6,962 bases of DNA from Candidatus Nanoarchaeia archaeon. Its GTDB lineage: Archaea; Nanoarchaeota; Nanoarchaeia; SCGC-AAA011-G17; JAFCDX01. Of this stretch, positions 1 to 6,674 are shown in pieces. The stretch lies in the NCBI GenBank assembly GCA_028717785.1, contig JAQUND010000082.1, forward strand, positions 1-6,962, given 5' to 3'. Numbering within the stretch: the first letter of the stretch is position 1; the number at the start of each line of letters is the position of its first letter. A model generated the notes under the pieces. The model was not told where the DNA came from. It ran no database searches and saw only the letters and a program-made list of their open reading frames with translations. The position numbers and the translations under genes were made by a program.

Positions 1-900
1 ATGAATGTTATAGTAGGTGGGGGAATTGCAGGCTTAATATGGGCTAAGTATCATACTGACCACTTTATTTTGACAGATCAAGTAGGTGGTCAGATGATTT
101 CTTATTTCGACTTGGGTCCGAGATATCTTCACAATAAATCAAAATATGTCGAGAAGTTCTTAGAAGATTTAGAAGTTCCATTAAAACTTTCAACAATAAG
201 AATTGGTTATCTAGATGATACAGGTTGGATAGATAATCCAGGACCAGAGTTCAGACAAAAATATTTCATGAAGTCAAGAGGGCAGAATGATTTGAAAGGT
301 TTTGATCCAACTGTCCTTAACACAAATATTAAAGAGTTTCAAGTATGCGATGTTGACTTTAAATTATTGATTTCCAAATTGTTTGATCAGTTAGAAGAGC
401 GTATTTATATGGGAAGTATAACTCATATAAATCTTGAAAAACAAATGATTTCAACAGATAGTAATATGGTACTCAAGTTCAGTAAGCTAGTATCTACAAT
501 ACCACTAAACATTTTTGCCCGTGTTGCTGGCTTGAGTATCGCATTACAATCTTTTGATATGGCCTATTGTTTATTGTCAAAAGATTTTTTCGACTTGAAA
601 GAGTTTGATTATGTGTATGATGCAAGAACAGACACCCCATTTCATAGAATGACTAAATGCAAGATGGGCGTTGTGTGCGATGTTGTTGGAACAAGAATTA
701 TTGATTTTAAGAAATATATAGATCCTAAATATTTTACGATTCCTATTGATCAAGCTGTTAGGCTTGTAAAGAACAATCAGATTATTTCTTTAGAAAATGA
801 TTTTGAATTGAAAGATAAGCCAGTAAAATTTGTGGGACGGTATGGTACTTGGAATCGTCGTTGGAAAACTGAGACAGTAATAGAAGAAGCACAAGCATAG
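1..900 (+). CDS. FAD-dependent oxidoreductase, amine-oxidase / UDP-galactopyranose-mutase-like
   Basis: The 299-residue product opens with a Rossmann dinucleotide-binding loop, GGGIAGL (residues 6-12), right after a hydrophobic strand. An acidic residue, Asp26 (FILTD), sits where FAD enzymes hold the ribose. A GPRYLH stretch (39-44) resembles the flavin-proximal region of this superfamily. A VSTIPL strand (164-169) and a C-terminal FVGRYGTW (277-284) with a final helix match the second FAD-binding segment of amine oxidases and UDP-galactopyranose mutases. Those mutases are usually about 370-390 residues, so this is a compact version with a reduced substrate domain. The protein is probably a soluble flavoenzyme; its substrate cannot be read from sequence. 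The ATG is the first base of the window, so upstream signals and an earlier start cannot be judged. The gene runs directly into the ribosome site of the next. The FAD fold is secure and the specific reaction is not. Confidence 0.8.
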   Translation: MNVIVGGGIAGLIWAKYHTDHFILTDQVGGQMISYFDLGPRYLHNKSKYVEKFLEDLEVPLKLSTIRIGYLDDTGWIDNPGPEFRQKYFMKSRGQNDLKGFDPTVLNTNIKEFQVCDVDFKLLISKLFDQLEERIYMGSITHINLEKQMISTDSNMVLKFSKLVSTIPLNIFARVAGLSIALQSFDMAYCLLSKDFFDLKEFDYVYDARTDTPFHRMTKCKMGVVCDVVGTRIIDFKKYIDPKYFTIPIDQAVRLVKNNQIISLENDFELKDKPVKFVGRYGTWNRRWKTETVIEEAQA

Positions 901-1878: not shown

Positions 1879-2131
1879 AAACACGTTTAAACCCTTGGGC
1901 ATTTTGTATTACCATGATCAAGTAGTAAATCATCGAAGTATTCGTAAAGTTTTTTTAAATCCTATTTTGATGATGTTTGGCATAATGATTGCTTCTTATT
2001 TTGATAATAACAAGTTTTTAAATTATACAATCATAAAGTGCAAATCAAGATTAAATGTTTTTAAGAATTTTTACTTGCATTTTTTTACCTGCAATGATTT
2101 CGACAGAGTAGAGAAAAAGAAATTATTATGA
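1868..2131 (+). CDS. hypothetical basic, phenylalanine-rich protein, weakly supported
   Basis: An 87-residue frame overlaps the end of the P-loop NTPase gene by 11 bases and ends in an ATGA overlap with the following gene. It covers a 249-base stretch that has no other convincing gene. The product is rich in Lys, Asn, Phe and Ile. It has a short hydrophobic stretch (about residues 30-45, containing PILMMFGIMIASYF) that could be a weak membrane segment, and a basic C-terminus. No known domain or motif is recognised. The ribosome site before 1868 is poor, and the thymine runs are unlike the neighbouring genes. Overlaps at both ends favour a real gene. A non-coding or decayed stretch is the alternative. 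Confidence 0.45.
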   Translation: MKIKNTFKPLGILYYHDQVVNHRSIRKVFLNPILMMFGIMIASYFDNNKFLNYTIIKCKSRLNVFKNFYLHFFTCNDFDRVEKKKLL

Positions 2132-3090
2132 ATAAAAAAATCTGGGACAATCAATTTGAATTCAATGAAGAGTTTTTTAAAGATCAGAAACTTGATATTC
2201 ATAATCTGTCTTTACAAGAAAAAATTCGTTGGGCAAAAGAATTTTGTTTTCATGTTAATAAAGAATTAGCCGATCTTATAAACTGTCTCCCTCACTGGAA
2301 AATGCATTATAAAGTGAGCGAGAAAGAAGATACTATTGTCACAAGCAATTTAGTTGAAGAATATATAGATGTTTTGAAATATTTTATGGGCCTTGGGCAA
2401 TTGCTTGGGATTTCTTACGAAGATGTAATTAAAGGTTACAACGACAAAACTGAAGTAGTAAAACAAAAATATGAGCAAAACAAGAAGTTTCAATCTCTTC
2501 TTCATAAAAAAGTAGTCATTTTTGATGTTGACGGCGTGATTAACAATTTCCCTGATTGTTTTTTAGATTGGGTAAATAAAAAAGGAAATAAGTTTGAATC
2601 TGTCGAACAAATGAAAGATTTGTTAGATCTTAAAACATATCAAGAGTTGAAAGTCGAATATAGACTTTCAGGAGAAAAAAGGCATCAGCCTGTCAATAAA
2701 GAAACTTTGAAATTGATGAATCTACTTAAATCACAGGGCGAAACGATAATTCTCTTCACAAACAGACCAGTGTCGAAGTTCAAAGTGATCTATACAGACA
2801 CGCTTTATTGGTTACACAAAAATAATATACCTTTTGATGCTATTTACTGGTCCGATTTTCAAAGAAAAGAAGACATCTATAAACTCAGGTTTAAGATCAA
2901 ATACATTGTTGAAGACAATTTAGATAATGCAAAAAATTTCAATCATGAAGGGCACTTGGTATTTTTACTTGAGAAACTTTACAATCAAGATGGTATTTAT
3001 GCGAATGACAAACTTATAAGAATCAAAACTCCAATGGAGCTTTTAACATATGTTCAGTCCAAAAGTAGAAAACGGCTTAAAAAAGATTAA
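2128..3090 (+). CDS. fused all-alpha NTP pyrophosphatase (MazG/dimeric dUTPase-like) and HAD phosphatase
   Basis: The protein has 320 residues in two domains. The N-terminal domain (about 25-118) is helical, with KELAD (Glu46, Asp49), then NCLPHWKMH, then VEEYID (Glu77, Glu78, Asp81), then LGISYEDVIKGYNDK. This is the metal-binding layout of all-alpha NTP pyrophosphatases, including dimeric dUTPases and T4 dCTPase/dUTPase gp56, which cleave dNTPs to dNMPs. The C-terminal domain (about 128-300) is HAD: motif I FDVDGV (nucleophile Asp133, acid Asp135), motif II LFTNRP (Thr211), a Lys near 247 and acidic motif IV VEDNLDNA (261-268). The YRLSGEKR and TLYWLHKN segments resemble 5'(3')-deoxyribonucleotidases. 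The two domains could act in series on one nucleotide, but the base specificity is unknown. The ATG overlaps the preceding stop as ATGA, and the ribosome site is weak, which favours translational coupling. Fold calls are firm; the substrate is inferred. Confidence 0.85.
   Translation: MNKKIWDNQFEFNEEFFKDQKLDIHNLSLQEKIRWAKEFCFHVNKELADLINCLPHWKMHYKVSEKEDTIVTSNLVEEYIDVLKYFMGLGQLLGISYEDVIKGYNDKTEVVKQKYEQNKKFQSLLHKKVVIFDVDGVINNFPDCFLDWVNKKGNKFESVEQMKDLLDLKTYQELKVEYRLSGEKRHQPVNKETLKLMNLLKSQGETIILFTNRPVSKFKVIYTDTLYWLHKNNIPFDAIYWSDFQRKEDIYKLRFKIKYIVEDNLDNAKNFNHEGHLVFLLEKLYNQDGIYANDKLIRIKTPMELLTYVQSKSRKRLKKD
3036..3039 (+). promoter_or_regulatory. Shine-Dalgarno GGAG for the glycosylase-like gene
   Basis: GGAG lies within the end of the upstream coding sequence, 10 bases before the ATG at 3050. 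It supports that start despite a 41-base overlap between the two genes; the next in-frame ATG would remove the first two cluster cysteines. Confidence 0.6.
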
Positions 3091-3634
3091 TGAAAAAATT
3101 CAAGTCTGTACTAAGTGTGAGTTATGTAATCTAGAAGAAAACAAAAAAGATATTTCTAAAGGTTTTGGAAAACTTTATGGTTGGAGAGGCGGCACTAAAA
3201 AGTGCCGCTTTATGTTTATCGGGATGAATCCTTCATACAACCGATTTGCTGGACATGAATACGCATTTGGAGGAGTAAATGGTAGCCCTGGGCCTGGTGA
3301 AAAATTTAACAACCTCTTAAAAGAAACAGGTATGTTTGACGAGATATTTTGCGACAATGTAATTCACTGCTCTACATCTACTAATGCGATAAATAATTCT
3401 TGTGCTCGAGCTTGCTTCTCTTTTTTATTAGAAGAAATTAATGTCTTGAAACCTCATATCATTATTGCTATGGGCAGACAAGTTTTTGAAATACTATTAG
3501 ATCTATGTCTAGAGAACAATATAAAAATACCTATTAGATCTATATGGCATCCAAGCTATGTGTTTTCTTATCAGAGAAGCACACCAGAGGAATATAAAGC
3601 TTTTATAATACAAGCCTGCAAGGAGCAAAAATGA
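3050..3634 (+). CDS. uracil-DNA glycosylase superfamily protein with probable 4Fe-4S cluster
   Basis: The 194-residue product matches the compact Fe-S uracil-DNA glycosylases (family 4/5 type), which excise uracil or other damaged bases from DNA. Four cysteines fit the cluster ligands: Cys20 and Cys23 in VCTKCELC, then Cys107 in DNVIHCST and Cys122 in CARAC, 15 residues apart, close to the spacing known for family 4. The active-site motif 1 is FIGMNPS (56-62), which differs from the family 4 GEAPG form. It is closer to the GINPG/GMNPG of MUG and SMUG1, with Asn60 at the catalytic position. Motif 2 is WHPSYV (166-171), as in this superfamily. A helix LLEEINVLKPHIIIAMG (126-142) is also typical. 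The gene overlaps its upstream neighbour by 41 bases and the next gene by an ATGA. A GC-rich hairpin sits inside it. Membership is firm; the excised base is uncertain. Confidence 0.85.
   Translation: MFSPKVENGLKKINEKIQVCTKCELCNLEENKKDISKGFGKLYGWRGGTKKCRFMFIGMNPSYNRFAGHEYAFGGVNGSPGPGEKFNNLLKETGMFDEIFCDNVIHCSTSTNAINNSCARACFSFLLEEINVLKPHIIIAMGRQVFEILLDLCLENNIKIPIRSIWHPSYVFSYQRSTPEEYKAFIIQACKEQK
3189..3208 (+). other. perfect 8-bp GC-rich hairpin inside the glycosylase gene
   Basis: GCGGCACT and its exact complement AGTGCCGC are separated by an AAAA tetraloop and followed by TTTATGTTTAT. G:U and A:U pairs extend the RNA stem to about 11 pairs (3186-3211). Six of the eight core pairs are G:C, unusual in so AT-rich a region. 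It resembles an intrinsic terminator or a processing or attenuation hairpin, although the U tract is short. It lies at residues 47-54 (around GGTKKC), between the first cysteine pair and motif 1. The stem is seen directly; any function is inferred. Confidence 0.75.
3621..3625 (+). promoter_or_regulatory. Shine-Dalgarno AGGAG for the epimerase gene
   Basis: AGGAG is embedded in the last codons of the glycosylase-like gene, 5 bases before the ATG at 3631. With the ATGA overlap it indicates re-initiation or coupled translation. Confidence 0.8.
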
Positions 3635-4680
3635 AAAAGATTTTAATAACTGGAGAATCGGGCACAATTCCAATGCAAATGCAAAGGATAGCAAAGAATT
3701 TTGGTTTTGAAGTTGTCAATACACAACTAGAACACACACTATTAGACTCATTCAAAACGCACCAAAGTTTTAAAGTAAGGAAACCTGAACTTGATTTCCT
3801 TGATACGTCTCACCTGATAAGAGCGCCCTGGGACAATTTAGATCTAGTAATTCATTCAGGCGCATTTGTTGGAACTGATTATTGTTCTTCGGACCCTAGT
3901 CTTGCTATAAGGACGAACGTCGTCGGTACGCAGAATATAGTTGATCTTTGTAATAAATATGAAATACCGCTTATTTATTTGTCGACTACAGCTATACTTG
4001 ATCCTTCTGATTATGGGCCCAGGAAACCAATGACAGAAGAAACAAAAATCAATCCCCAAACTCTTTATGGTATTACCAAATATGCTGGAGAATTGATAGT
4101 AAAAAATACATGTCACACAAAACATCTGGTACTACGTCCTGTCTTTGGATTTGGAAATTATCCTGATGATTTGCATAGTGCTCTAACAAAATTTATCTAT
4201 ATCATGTACAAGAATATCACTCAACCAGCAAACCATAAACTTAAAATTTTGTTAAATAAAGGAACTGCAAAATCTTATACGAGAGTCGAAAATATAGCAA
4301 CATGTATTTTGAGTTTTGCACAAAGATTGCTTGACAACACAATTCCTTGCGTTGGTGGTGCTTCACATCGCCCTGTTTTTAATATAGGCGAAAATCATAC
4401 AAATTCAAAAACTTGGTTCGAGCTTTTTGAATTTGTTGCTTACAGATTTGCAGTACGAGGAATTTGCGTCCCAGATGTTTTTTATAGACATATAGATGAT
4501 TGGATTGATTTTGATGGGACAAGAGATTACTTGCATTATCATAACATGTCTGACGATAAACTTCGTTATTGTAAGATAGATTTTGCAAGTAATCAAGGGT
4601 ATATCCCTTTAGAAACTGGTATAAGAATGACAATAGAAAGCATAATCAATAATATAGGAATGGAGCCTTACTGGTTATGA
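3631..4680 (+). CDS. NAD-dependent epimerase/dehydratase (extended SDR family)
   Basis: The 349-residue protein has an N-terminal strand and nucleotide-binding loop, ILITGESGTIP (4-14); the third glycine of GxxGxxG is replaced by Pro14. The SDR landmarks follow: LDLVIHSGAFVG (70-81), TNVVGTQNI (95-103), the serine/threonine strand IYLSTTA (115-121), and catalytic YGITK (Tyr146, Lys150) with Ser118-Thr120 as the partner. LRPVFGFG (168-175) is the post-catalytic strand. Family members oxidise, epimerise, dehydrate or reduce sugars linked to a nucleotide, so the likely substrate is an NDP-sugar. The C-terminal half (about 200-349), which sets the sugar specificity, is not distinctive enough to name one. 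The gene overlaps both neighbours by ATGA. Plausible uses are a surface sugar or a sugar placed on a modified base; the first is the common use of such phage genes. Confidence 0.85.
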   Translation: MKKILITGESGTIPMQMQRIAKNFGFEVVNTQLEHTLLDSFKTHQSFKVRKPELDFLDTSHLIRAPWDNLDLVIHSGAFVGTDYCSSDPSLAIRTNVVGTQNIVDLCNKYEIPLIYLSTTAILDPSDYGPRKPMTEETKINPQTLYGITKYAGELIVKNTCHTKHLVLRPVFGFGNYPDDLHSALTKFIYIMYKNITQPANHKLKILLNKGTAKSYTRVENIATCILSFAQRLLDNTIPCVGGASHRPVFNIGENHTNSKTWFELFEFVAYRFAVRGICVPDVFYRHIDDWIDFDGTRDYLHYHNMSDDKLRYCKIDFASNQGYIPLETGIRMTIESIINNIGMEPYWL

Positions 4681-5165
4681 TAGTTTTATTTTTAGGTCCA
4701 GACTGTTCTGGCAAAGACTCTCTGATGCATGAACTTGCAAAACTATATGATTATAAATATTATATGAGTCCAAGATCGCCAATCTGCAATATAGTCTATG
4801 ATACAATCTATAATAGAACAGAAACATCAAGAAAAGAAACAAATTTTAAACTAATAGAAAAGTTCTTGGATCTTGGCGCATGTTTTGTTTATATTAAAGT
4901 CGACTCTAAAGTTTTGCTTGGAAGAGCTTTGGCTAGAAACGAAAAACATGTATCAAGTTTGCAGACATTCAAACAACACATAAAAATTTACGAACAAATC
5001 ATCCAAGAATGCAAGAAAAAATTTAAAGATTATTCAGATAGATTTATTCAAATCGATAATTCAGCTTCTATTGAAACTGTTGCTCAAAAACTTAAAGAAA
5101 AAGTAGACCCTGTTTTAGATATGATAACATTAGAAGATGCAAGCGAACATTTTTCGAACAGGTGA
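4677..5165 (+). CDS. small P-loop nucleotide kinase-like protein (dNMP/thymidylate kinase fold)
   Basis: The 162-residue product starts with a strand and a Walker A loop, GPDCSGKDS (7-15), in the form common to phage nucleotide kinases. The segment SPRSPICNIVYDTIYNR (31-47) resembles the DRxxxSxxVY stretch of thymidylate-kinase-like proteins, with Pro32 where Asp is usual. A strand ACFVYIKVD (68-76) and a lid-like region with Arg83 and Arg87 (GRALARNEK) complete the core, and the rest is helical. Thymidylate kinases are about 200-215 residues and T4 gp1 is 241, so this is a short form with the region between Walker A and the substrate motif reduced. It may phosphorylate a (modified) dNMP or have another small substrate. 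It begins as an ATGA overlap with the epimerase stop; GGAG at 4662-4665 may serve as ribosome site. Confidence 0.75.
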   Translation: MIVLFLGPDCSGKDSLMHELAKLYDYKYYMSPRSPICNIVYDTIYNRTETSRKETNFKLIEKFLDLGACFVYIKVDSKVLLGRALARNEKHVSSLQTFKQHIKIYEQIIQECKKKFKDYSDRFIQIDNSASIETVAQKLKEKVDPVLDMITLEDASEHFSNR

Positions 5166-5168
5166 CAT

Positions 5169-6098
5169 ATGATAAATAGAGAACGTAATCTGATAAATAC
5201 AAATAGATTTGTGTCTGTTCAACAGAACTCGCCTTTTTTACAACCTTCAAGAATTAAGATGTGTAATTTTGAAAAATACAAATTGTTTCTTAATTCGATA
5301 GAACTTGAAAATTTTGAAACTATAATGATAAAAAAAGGAAATTGTTCTACAAATGAAGCAGCCGAAAAAATAGCTTATGGGAATGTTTACAATTCACATT
5401 CACTTCCATTTTATCTCTACAATTTCTCAGCCTTAAAAATGATTGATAGATTGATCCCAGTAAAGTCTGATAAAGTCGTTCTTGAATTAGGTTGTAACAA
5501 TGGACATGTTTCTCGTTTATTTCAACGTAATGGATTCAAATTCAAAGAATATTGGGGAGTCGATTTTGATTTTTCTTTTATTGTTGATGGTTTAGATGCT
5601 TTCAAAGAAGAAGACAATCTTTTTGTAAGCAATTTTTGTTCAGGTAATTTCAATAAACTACTTAATTTCAAAGATTCTTCTTTTGATCTTGTTTATTTCC
5701 AAGAAGCATTTGATCATTGTAAAGACAAGTTTTTCTATGCAGAACAATGTGTTTCTGAGATTCAAAGAGTTTTGAAGCCGGGTGGTTATCTCTATATCAC
5801 GTTAGTTTTTGAGCATGAATTTAGAGATTTGTATCATTGGGACCATAATTATGTCTGGGATAAATTTCAATTTGAAAATATGATACAAGATTATTTTCAA
5901 ATAGCAAATTTTTCTCCATTACTTACATTTGAAAAAGCAATTACAAATACAGAAAGACTTGGGTACCCAATAGTAATTGAAGAAGCTCTGCAAGACGCTT
6001 ATAAAAATTGGCCACCAAAATTTGCTAAAATGATTTGCGCTCCCTTTGTACACAGCGACTATACCGCTGTAGGGGCTTTTATGCTTAAAAAGGTGTAA
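5169..6098 (+). CDS. class I SAM-dependent methyltransferase
   Basis: The 309-residue protein has the Rossmann methyltransferase core in its middle: motif I VVLELGCNNGHVS (103-115), an acidic ribose-binding residue in GVDFD (130-134), motif IV FDLVYFQEAFDH (172-183) and the LKPGGYLYIT turn and strand (202-211). The order matches Methyltransf_11-type small-molecule methyltransferases. No target-recognition domain or DPPY-type motif of DNA adenine or cytosine-N4 methylases is seen, and no PC loop of C5 methylases. The first 100 residues are an added helical region, and the C-terminus (about 215-309) is a family-specific cap rich in aromatics. A sugar, polysaccharide or nucleotide substrate is more likely than unmodified DNA. 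Four bases separate it from the kinase gene, and AGGTGA overlaps that gene's stop, only 3 bases before the ATG. Confidence 0.8.
   Translation: MINRERNLINTNRFVSVQQNSPFLQPSRIKMCNFEKYKLFLNSIELENFETIMIKKGNCSTNEAAEKIAYGNVYNSHSLPFYLYNFSALKMIDRLIPVKSDKVVLELGCNNGHVSRLFQRNGFKFKEYWGVDFDFSFIVDGLDAFKEEDNLFVSNFCSGNFNKLLNFKDSSFDLVYFQEAFDHCKDKFFYAEQCVSEIQRVLKPGGYLYITLVFEHEFRDLYHWDHNYVWDKFQFENMIQDYFQIANFSPLLTFEKAITNTERLGYPIVIEEALQDAYKNWPPKFAKMICAPFVHSDYTAVGAFMLKKV
6052..6070 (+). other. 6-bp hairpin near the end of the methyltransferase gene
   Basis: ACAGCG and CGCTGT are exact complements with a 7-base loop, followed by AGGGGCTTTT. It could weaken transcription at the end of the coupled block, but the stem is short and it lies in coding sequence, so chance is possible. 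Confidence 0.35.
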
Positions 6099-6164: not shown

Positions 6165-6674
6165 ATGTTGAAAATGAATATTGAGAATTGGAAAAGTAGA
6201 ATTGACAGACAATTCGAAGCTGGGCTTTATGAATCAATTCGAATAGGGGGAAATAGAGACACTCGTGAAATAACTAATTTTGAATTTTGTTTGCAACCTG
6301 AAGATTGTCTTGAATTAGCACCTGTACCAGTACCCGAAGAAGAAATTGAGCGACAATTTGTAATACGTAGATCAATCGATATGTTTGGGTATTTAAATAT
6401 TGATTTTAATTCGAGGCAAGGGGCATTTGTCAATAATTATGATGATGCTGACAACCATTGTATTGCTTATTTCCATCATTATGTAAGAGATGGAAAATAT
6501 TGCATGAATGTTTATGTCAGAAGTATGGATTATGACAGGAACTTTGTTTTTGATTGTCAGACGTTCAATTTGTGTTATAAAGAAGTGTTCAAGAGACTAA
6601 AAGAAAAATATGAAGATTTTATTGAAGAAGGTTATATGAGAGTTTTTGTGTTCTCACTTCACAAATATATTTGA
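6165..6674 (+). CDS. compact thymidylate-synthase-family protein, probable dCMP hydroxymethylase-like
   Basis: In this 169-residue protein, residues 99-122 align without gaps to the catalytic region of E. coli thymidylate synthase. Cys99 matches nucleophile Cys146, YVRDGK (106-111) matches YVADGK, and Arg119-Ser120-Asp122 match Arg166-Ser167-Asp169. Asp130 falls on Asn177, the residue that reads the pyrimidine base. Asp there is the hallmark of dCMP hydroxymethylases (T4 gp42 Cys148/Asp179, the same 31-residue spacing), favouring dCMP over dUMP. C-terminal His166 and Tyr168 (SLHKY) match the sugar-binding H-x-Y. Known relatives are about 240-270 residues. Here the N-terminal half is much reduced: NRDT (30-33) may be the remnant of the phosphate-binding arginine loop, and the usual Glu/Trp segment is not recognisable. 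The reaction would add hydroxymethyl (or methyl) from methylene-tetrahydrofolate to dCMP. Family membership is secure; activity is less so because of the truncation. Confidence 0.8.
   Translation: MLKMNIENWKSRIDRQFEAGLYESIRIGGNRDTREITNFEFCLQPEDCLELAPVPVPEEEIERQFVIRRSIDMFGYLNIDFNSRQGAFVNNYDDADNHCIAYFHHYVRDGKYCMNVYVRSMDYDRNFVFDCQTFNLCYKEVFKRLKEKYEDFIEEGYMRVFVFSLHKYI

Follow-up and report, generated by a model that had tools for sequence, protein, structure and literature searches.

Results

The DNA studied here is a stretch of 6,962 nucleotides, contig JAQUND010000082.1 of assembly GCA_028717785.1, which we call the window, and its main genes are tightly packed on one strand. They run from a flavoprotein resembling UDP-galactopyranose mutase (UGM) through small open reading frames (ORFs) and a possible P-loop protein to a pyrophosphatase-HAD protein, a uracil-DNA glycosylase (UDG), an epimerase, a kinase, a methyltransferase and, last, the short protein like thymidylate synthase (TS) that is our main subject and that we call mini-TS (Table 1). 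Judged from its sequence and a structural model, mini-TS is a TS homologue, a minimal enzyme of the TS superfamily. Its AlphaFold model has the TS fold (pLDDT 95.7), and Foldseek with this model returns phage T4 dCMP hydroxymethylase as the top PDB match (E 1e-9). Pfam and PHROGs place the 169-residue protein itself in no family, the TS family PF00303 staying below its cut-off, and phmmer with the protein alone ranks E. coli TS (E 0.15) behind the unrelated Sequestosome-1 (E 0.026) in the PDB.

Searching 5.8 billion proteins yielded 48 members of the family, the window's own included; P0004 comes from a metagenome-assembled genome (MAG) and the others from metagenome sources. Excluding the fragment P0047 and counting the window copy once gives an alignment of 47 rows (A1); its profile reached 87 proteins at E <= 1, four of which carry a precomputed PF00303 assignment (P0074, P0077, P0078 and P0080), and 47 chosen from these 87, down to about 25% identity, form the partly overlapping alignment A2. 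A MAFFT alignment of 30 rows comprises the window protein, 19 ORFs from the gene cassettes described below, five database relatives and five references. Two alignments match C99, R84, R119, S120 and H166 of mini-TS to C146, R126, R166, S167 and H207 of E. coli TS (EcTS). Each of the five is present in 47/47 rows of A1; in the MAFFT alignment R84, C99, R119 and S120 are found in every row and H166 in 29, with a gap in the remaining one. We also considered that the gene is a truncated pseudogene and rejected this because the relatives are equally short, at roughly 155-196 residues (except P0047 and the fusion P0050). P0004 and P0058 are labelled as Nanoarchaeia and Cloacimonetes MAG proteins; they are possibly from binned virus contigs.

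The original prediction held that this TS homologue carries the Asn-to-Asp switch of dCMP hydroxymethylases, with Cys99 and Asp130 separated by 31 residues just as are Cys146 and Asn177 in EcTS and Cys148 and Asp179 in T4 gp42. Two alignments with fetched references agree on this spacing and pair D130 with N177 and D179, and C99 with C146 and C148; the column of the canonical Asn177 thus holds Asp130, and both Asp179 and Cys148 of the T4 type have their equivalents. C99 and D130 are identical in 47/47 rows of A1 and again in 47/47 of A2, and position 130 is Asp in 29 of the 30 MAFFT rows, EcTS alone having Asn. The residue after the catalytic Cys is likewise His only in EcTS in that alignment, His147 being replaced by Ile in the window protein. 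When the A2 profile is compared with the PDB, T4 dCMP hydroxymethylase comes first (E 1.9e-5), with the family Asp lying on T4 D179 without a gap. A competing single-sequence hhalign register to EcTS, in which a five-residue gap puts N177 on N135, was ruled out because N135 is less conserved than D130 (36/47 rows in A1 and 18/47 in A2). The comparison with T4 gp42, MilA and TS was made in structure for all three and in sequence also for T4 gp42 and EcTS. In T4 the D179N change lowers kcat by up to about 3600-fold (excerpt of PMC6400193), and MetaGPA ranked positions 177 and 147 highest for telling TS proteins on modified-DNA contigs from those on unmodified ones (excerpt of PMC8670742). From these sequence comparisons, the Asn-to-Asp switch and hence a preference for dCMP are well supported; the claim that Asp directs the choice towards dCMP is strengthened by the invariance of D130 and by a top PDB match that sets Asp on Asp.

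The same comparisons indicate that, of the active site, mini-TS retains the half that binds the nucleotide and has lost the half for folate. Two alignments leave gaps in mini-TS opposite T4 residues 46-82 and 90-98 (or 46-96) and opposite the C-terminal tail (220-246), amounting to some 45-50 residues of the gp42 folate lobe plus the tail. The lost stretches contain Asn53, Tyr56, Arg59, Glu60, Ile81, Trp82, Ser94 and Tyr96, which in T4 contact folate or have roles in the reaction (excerpt of PMC6400193). EcTS residues 39-80 and 88-98 (or 39-106) and 211-264 are missing in the same way, and Glu58, Trp80, Tyr94 and Val262 of its folate lobe and tail fall in gaps, as do Glu60, Ser94 and Tyr96 of T4 along with the lobe that binds tetrahydrofolate (THF). 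T4 Asp145 has an equivalent in Asp96 of mini-TS, and the place of TS Asp169 is taken by Asp122 in the window protein and by Asn in 32/47 close relatives; the title of PDB entry 1bjg reads 'D221(169)N mutant does not promote opening of the cofactor imidazolidine ring'. The part of the original prediction that had the enzyme make 'hydroxymethyl- or methyl-dCMP' from methylene-THF did not stand: the T4 folate-step residues are without counterpart because most of the lobe and the tail are gone, and classical folate chemistry appears unlikely. We would not class mini-TS as a hydroxymethylase of the T4 type, though it may act on the same nucleotide.

One could still suppose that mini-TS hydroxymethylates dCMP with folate, as T4 gp42 does, and that a short conserved E-E-x-x-E-R helix (residues 58-63) takes over the function of the lost lobe. 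The T4 enzyme is the best PDB profile match; Asp96, which lies on the T4 Asp145 said to activate water (excerpt of PMC6400193), is Asp in 45/47 relatives; Glu62 and Arg63 are present in 47/47 rows of A1 and of A2; and the window protein does have Asp at the Asp169 place. Against these stand the missing Glu60, Ser94, Tyr96 and THF contacts, the loss of T4 activity on Y96F or a carboxamide change at Asp145 (same excerpt), the failure of the wider cassette set to retain Glu62-Arg63, and the Asn at the Asp169 place in most close relatives. On balance we consider this account unlikely.

Table 1. Features of the window and of the mini-TS protein.
Feature	Position	Strand	Basis or remark
Small FAD protein, UGM-like fold, 299 aa as read	1..900	+	window begins at its ATG
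N-terminal all-alpha NTP-pyrophosphatase-like (dUTPase_2) + HAD domains	2128..3090	+	Pfam, PHROG
Uracil-DNA-glycosylase superfamily protein	3050..3634	+	Pfam UDG E 2.1e-14; PDB 4zbx uracil-DNA glycosylase E 6.3e-7
NAD-dependent sugar-nucleotide epimerase-like protein	3631..4680	+	Pfam RmlD_sub_bind E 3e-25, Epimerase E 1.5e-21
Nucleoside-monophosphate-kinase-like protein	4677..5165	+	PHROG 761 thymidylate kinase E 1.2e-10
SAM methyltransferase-like protein	5169..6098	+	Pfam Methyltransf_11 E 8.8e-17
Mini thymidylate-synthase-fold protein, 169 aa	6165..6674	+	ORF list (exact bounds, start ATG), AF2 model, Foldseek/VIA, invariant residues
Key mini-TS residues Cys99, Asp130, Arg84, Arg119, Ser120, His166			Cys99 codon TGT, 6459-6461; Asp130 codon GAT, 6552-6554

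Turning to the neighbours, the first protein of the window has the UGM fold. The pyrophosphatase-HAD assignment draws on Acid_phosphat_B (4.8e-5) and dUTPase_2 (0.019), both under the curated Pfam cut-off, and on PHROG 415 (polynucleotide kinase, E 7.6e-15) and PHROG 173 (NTP pyrophosphohydrolase, 2.5e-4); homologous domains in the fusion proteins L022, L026, L031 and L036 exceed the dUTPase_2 cut-off. The kinase scores 0.018 with Thymidylate_kin, also under the cut-off. The last 41 bases of the pyrophosphatase-HAD gene (3050-3090) also belong to the UDG gene, an overlap that suggests translational coupling of the two.

Three IMG/VR contigs with close mini-TS relatives share largely the same gene block. 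To count its members more widely we aligned 46 of 57 flavoprotein homologues (A3); a scan with A3 gave 30 loci, and removing the near-copies L015, L023 and L024 and adding L003 left 28 IMG/VR contigs. In the flanks retrieved, which span about 10 kb and are often cut short, the flavoprotein is accompanied by the NTP-pyrophosphatase/HAD protein in 24 contigs, a ThyX homologue in 24, the kinase in 23, a TS-like protein in 18, UDG in 14, the epimerase in 11, dCMP deaminase in nine and the methyltransferase in four, and we regard the last as accessory because of that low count. The contigs were gathered by the flavoprotein (one by its TS-like gene), so these counts express linkage to it and not independent sampling, and the E-values flatter distant members because the iterated profiles were built on the same loci. 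Two of the three closest records contain a glycosyltransferase (PF00534), at a distance of tens of kb or more from the cassette, and the pathway may include a sugar step. L002 has a radical SAM/SPASM protein upstream (35-1048); a similar-looking cluster, judged by eye (representative L031 12874), recurs in six of the 28 contigs and might contribute a step later in the pathway.

Several cassette genes are fused to one another. The flavoprotein is joined to the pyrophosphatase in L022-24, L026, L031 and L039 (dUTPase_2 is over the cut-off in L022, L026 and L031, not in L039), and L036:8646-9500 holds UDG and dUTPase_2 in one ORF, both above their Pfam cut-offs. Kinase and TS-like domains are fused in P0050, in L034 and, less surely, in L021, which scores 1.9e-17 with an iterated profile that includes it and 2.3e-4 with it excluded, and is lost with the default bias filter. 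In L022-24 an HhH-GPD glycosylase is fused to the TS-like domain; the L022 protein (12108-12965) has Pfam HhH-GPD at E 2.4e-10 with PF00303 barely over the cut-off, and we take its make-up to be reminiscent of MBD4-type glycosylases. The UDG orthologue L001:5707-7413 is 568 residues long (194 in the window) and carries an insert whose motif resembles that of an intein. The kinase fusions, together with the small size and the lost cofactor lobe, would also suit a protein that binds dCMP without catalysis, as a subunit or a sensor, perhaps to activate the kinase. This is quite unlikely in our view: the nucleophile Cys is retained throughout the family rows of three alignments, which overlap (47, 47 and 25 rows), and the His region likewise.

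Over whole records, PF02511 (ThyX) exceeds its cut-off in 24 of the 28, gaining G010 and lacking G018 relative to the flank count. Seven records (G003, G009, G011, G012, G013, G014 and G022) carry an ordinary ThyX-family gene and, in the cassette, a divergent second one. The ThyX motif is R-H-R; the ordinary copy has it, and the cassette copy shows R-x-R instead, besides further differences. In L025 the cassette copy has R-H-K, and in L003 it is divided between two ORFs. Some cassette homologues are overlong (L017, 485 residues; L027, 716 residues). PF00303 is matched in six of the 28 contigs: by position five of these matches (G013, G017, G022, G025 and G027) are the cassette TS-like genes, and the sixth contig, G020 (L031), has two matches about 50 kb from the flavoprotein. 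Among eight scanned cassette TS-like proteins L022, L033_8242 and L038 pass the PF00303 cut-off, and among the 47 mini-TS relatives four match at E <= 1, the best at 3e-4. In a tree, the mini proteins fall on one side of a branch with support 43/29, which leaves a single loss of the folate lobe unproven; a set of 11 that includes the window protein has support 97/91.

These neighbours bear on another alternative, that the substrate is a different pyrimidine, be it dUMP, a modified form of dUMP or a nucleoside within DNA, and that Asp130 is no sign of cytosine here. The pocket is heavily rebuilt, so a rule drawn from full-length enzymes may not carry over, and known relatives of UDG and ThyX act on uracil. 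We find this quite improbable given the Asp of 29/30 rows with Asn only in EcTS, the signature at positions 177 and 147 (excerpt of PMC8670742), and the three closest records, none of which matches PF00303 and all of which have a ThyX homologue (two of them the divergent cassette copy alone).

The phage status of the cassette contigs rests on their IMG/VR classification and on PF03237 terminases, since the other marker searches gave no match. PF03237 is matched in six of the 28 cassette records at E <= 0.001, four over the cut-off, and in none of the three closest, which also have no PF17289; the portal profile PF07230 had no match anywhere and carries no weight. Profile searches of genome contigs (hosts) with A1 and A3 found no relative. 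With tblastn, mini-TS, the window flavoprotein, the divergent ThyX of L033 and the flavoprotein-pyrophosphatase fusion of L039 had no match in 50,697 phage records, and the window epimerase matched ten of them, none over more than 80% of its length. We found no paper on the short family or the cassette in the open-licence PMC literature, judged mostly by listing entries, and mini-TS proteins apparently form an undescribed set.

Discussion

Comparison with known enzymes places mini-TS near several TS-superfamily proteins. It shares with T4 gp42 the fold, the Cys-Asp spacing, an S-L-H motif, the Arg and Ser phosphate residues and an Asp three before the Cys (D145/D96), and differs in length (169 against 246 residues) and in having no recognisable folate site. 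MilA, a CMP hydroxymethylase, gives the best structural score (Z 14.3) and shares the fold and the cytosine substrate predicted for mini-TS. MilA uses folate. It is a 318-residue chain acting on CMP in an antibiotic pathway (excerpt of PMC5175136). ThyA (PF00303) has the fold and the places of the Cys, Arg126/166, Ser167 and His207, whereas mini-TS has Asp for Asn177 and Ile for His147 and lacks Glu58, Trp80, Tyr94 and the C-terminal tail. The class of AfhB and the 5-hodCMP synthase is approached in having a similar fold and the base-site Asp. AfhB of phage HY126 (9iqu, 9iqc) is a TS-superfamily dCMP hydroxylase that ranks second and third in the structural comparison at about 15% identity; the PDB title of 9iqc names a TS-superfamily dCMP enzyme with flavin, and Mosigvirus has a TS-superfamily 5-hodCMP synthase (excerpt of PMC13390438). 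Mini-TS resembles both in fold, in its predicted dCMP substrate and in phage setting, and the base-site Asp is seen in the Mosigvirus protein.

Our preferred reading, to which we give roughly even weight, is that mini-TS is a dCMP C5-modifying enzyme in a cytosine-modification cassette of uncultured phages, with flavin probably taking the place of the classical folate site. That the window is such a cassette is probable in itself. Of the modified-cytosine pathway originally proposed, the general idea gains indirect support from the neighbours and the hydroxymethyl or methyl chemistry is not borne out. Mini-TS would bind dCMP and activate its C5: Asp130 would protonate N3 of the cytosine, Cys99 would add to C6, and C5 of the adduct would take a group, a hydroxyl or a carbon unit, delivered through flavin. 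Two flavin-type families, the ThyX homologue and the UGM-like flavoprotein, sit in the cassette, and the flavin could belong to mini-TS itself or to either of these as a partner. The T4 counterparts of the remaining steps are the gp56 dCTPase, gp42 and the gp1 kinase. By analogy the pyrophosphatase would convert dCTP to dCMP, the TS-like protein would act next and the kinase would raise the modified dCMP towards the triphosphate (dCTP -> dCMP -> X-dCMP -> X-dCDP). The phage DNA would then carry a 5-modified cytosine, and UDG or the HhH glycosylase would remove the modified uracil arising when that cytosine deaminates.

Two related readings differ in where the flavin acts. Nested within the preferred reading, and not additional to it, is a self-contained flavin-dependent dCMP 5-hydroxylase performing the AfhB reaction; the ranks of 9iqu and 9iqc favour it, as does the Asn at the Asp169 place common to APCEc01_257 (RSQN) and most close relatives, though not the window protein, and the mini-TS family lacks a lobe of 40-odd residues that APCEc01_257 keeps. 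We hold it as a rather doubtful candidate, and treat with similar reserve a second reading, in which a flavin enzyme is split and mini-TS supplies the half that activates dCMP: Cys99 and Asp130 would render C5 nucleophilic, and a dedicated divergent ThyX and/or the UGM-like flavoprotein would pass on a carbon unit or sugar from flavin N5. To our knowledge such split-flavin chemistry has no precedent in the TS family. If true, it would yield a pre-replicative 5-substituted deoxycytidine, possibly C-linked.

Several observations weigh against the preferred reading of a flavin-linked dCMP enzyme. The activity, ligand and nucleoside product of mini-TS are predictions from sequence and model, and probable flavin use is read wholly from neighbours and fold matches; the flavin analogy is also loose because AfhB and the Mosigvirus enzyme are about 65-70 residues longer. 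Asp122 is kept as in folate enzymes. A ThyX beside the window gene is proposed from relatives, and the cassette copy, which is the sole ThyX homologue in two of these three closest records, may there be the maker of dTMP. Only 18 of the 28 flavoprotein loci show a TS-like gene, a count lowered in part by cut flanks. As for the base-reading site, the A1 profile finds TS in the PDB only at E 0.13 and T4 dCMP hydroxymethylase at 0.94, not significant because that profile is too narrow. Single-sequence hhalign with A2 did not single out T4 (LR756500 TS 93%, EcTS 89%, APCEc01_257 87%, T4 70% and Pikmin 35% probability), and A1 scored lower throughout. The register of Asp130 is less certain in eight of the 25 family rows, which align only with a one-residue gap between R119 and D130.

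If the preferred reading of mini-TS is right, the TS fold can be pared down to the core that binds the nucleotide and remain able to modify cytosine in the absence of a classical folate site, and uncultured phages carry a cytosine-modification kit that tblastn does not detect in deposited phage records. Mini-TS would then also help to flag modified viral DNA in metagenomes. As a small enzyme it lends itself to testing, and it likely points to a new DNA base, with a bearing on the evasion of restriction and CRISPR.
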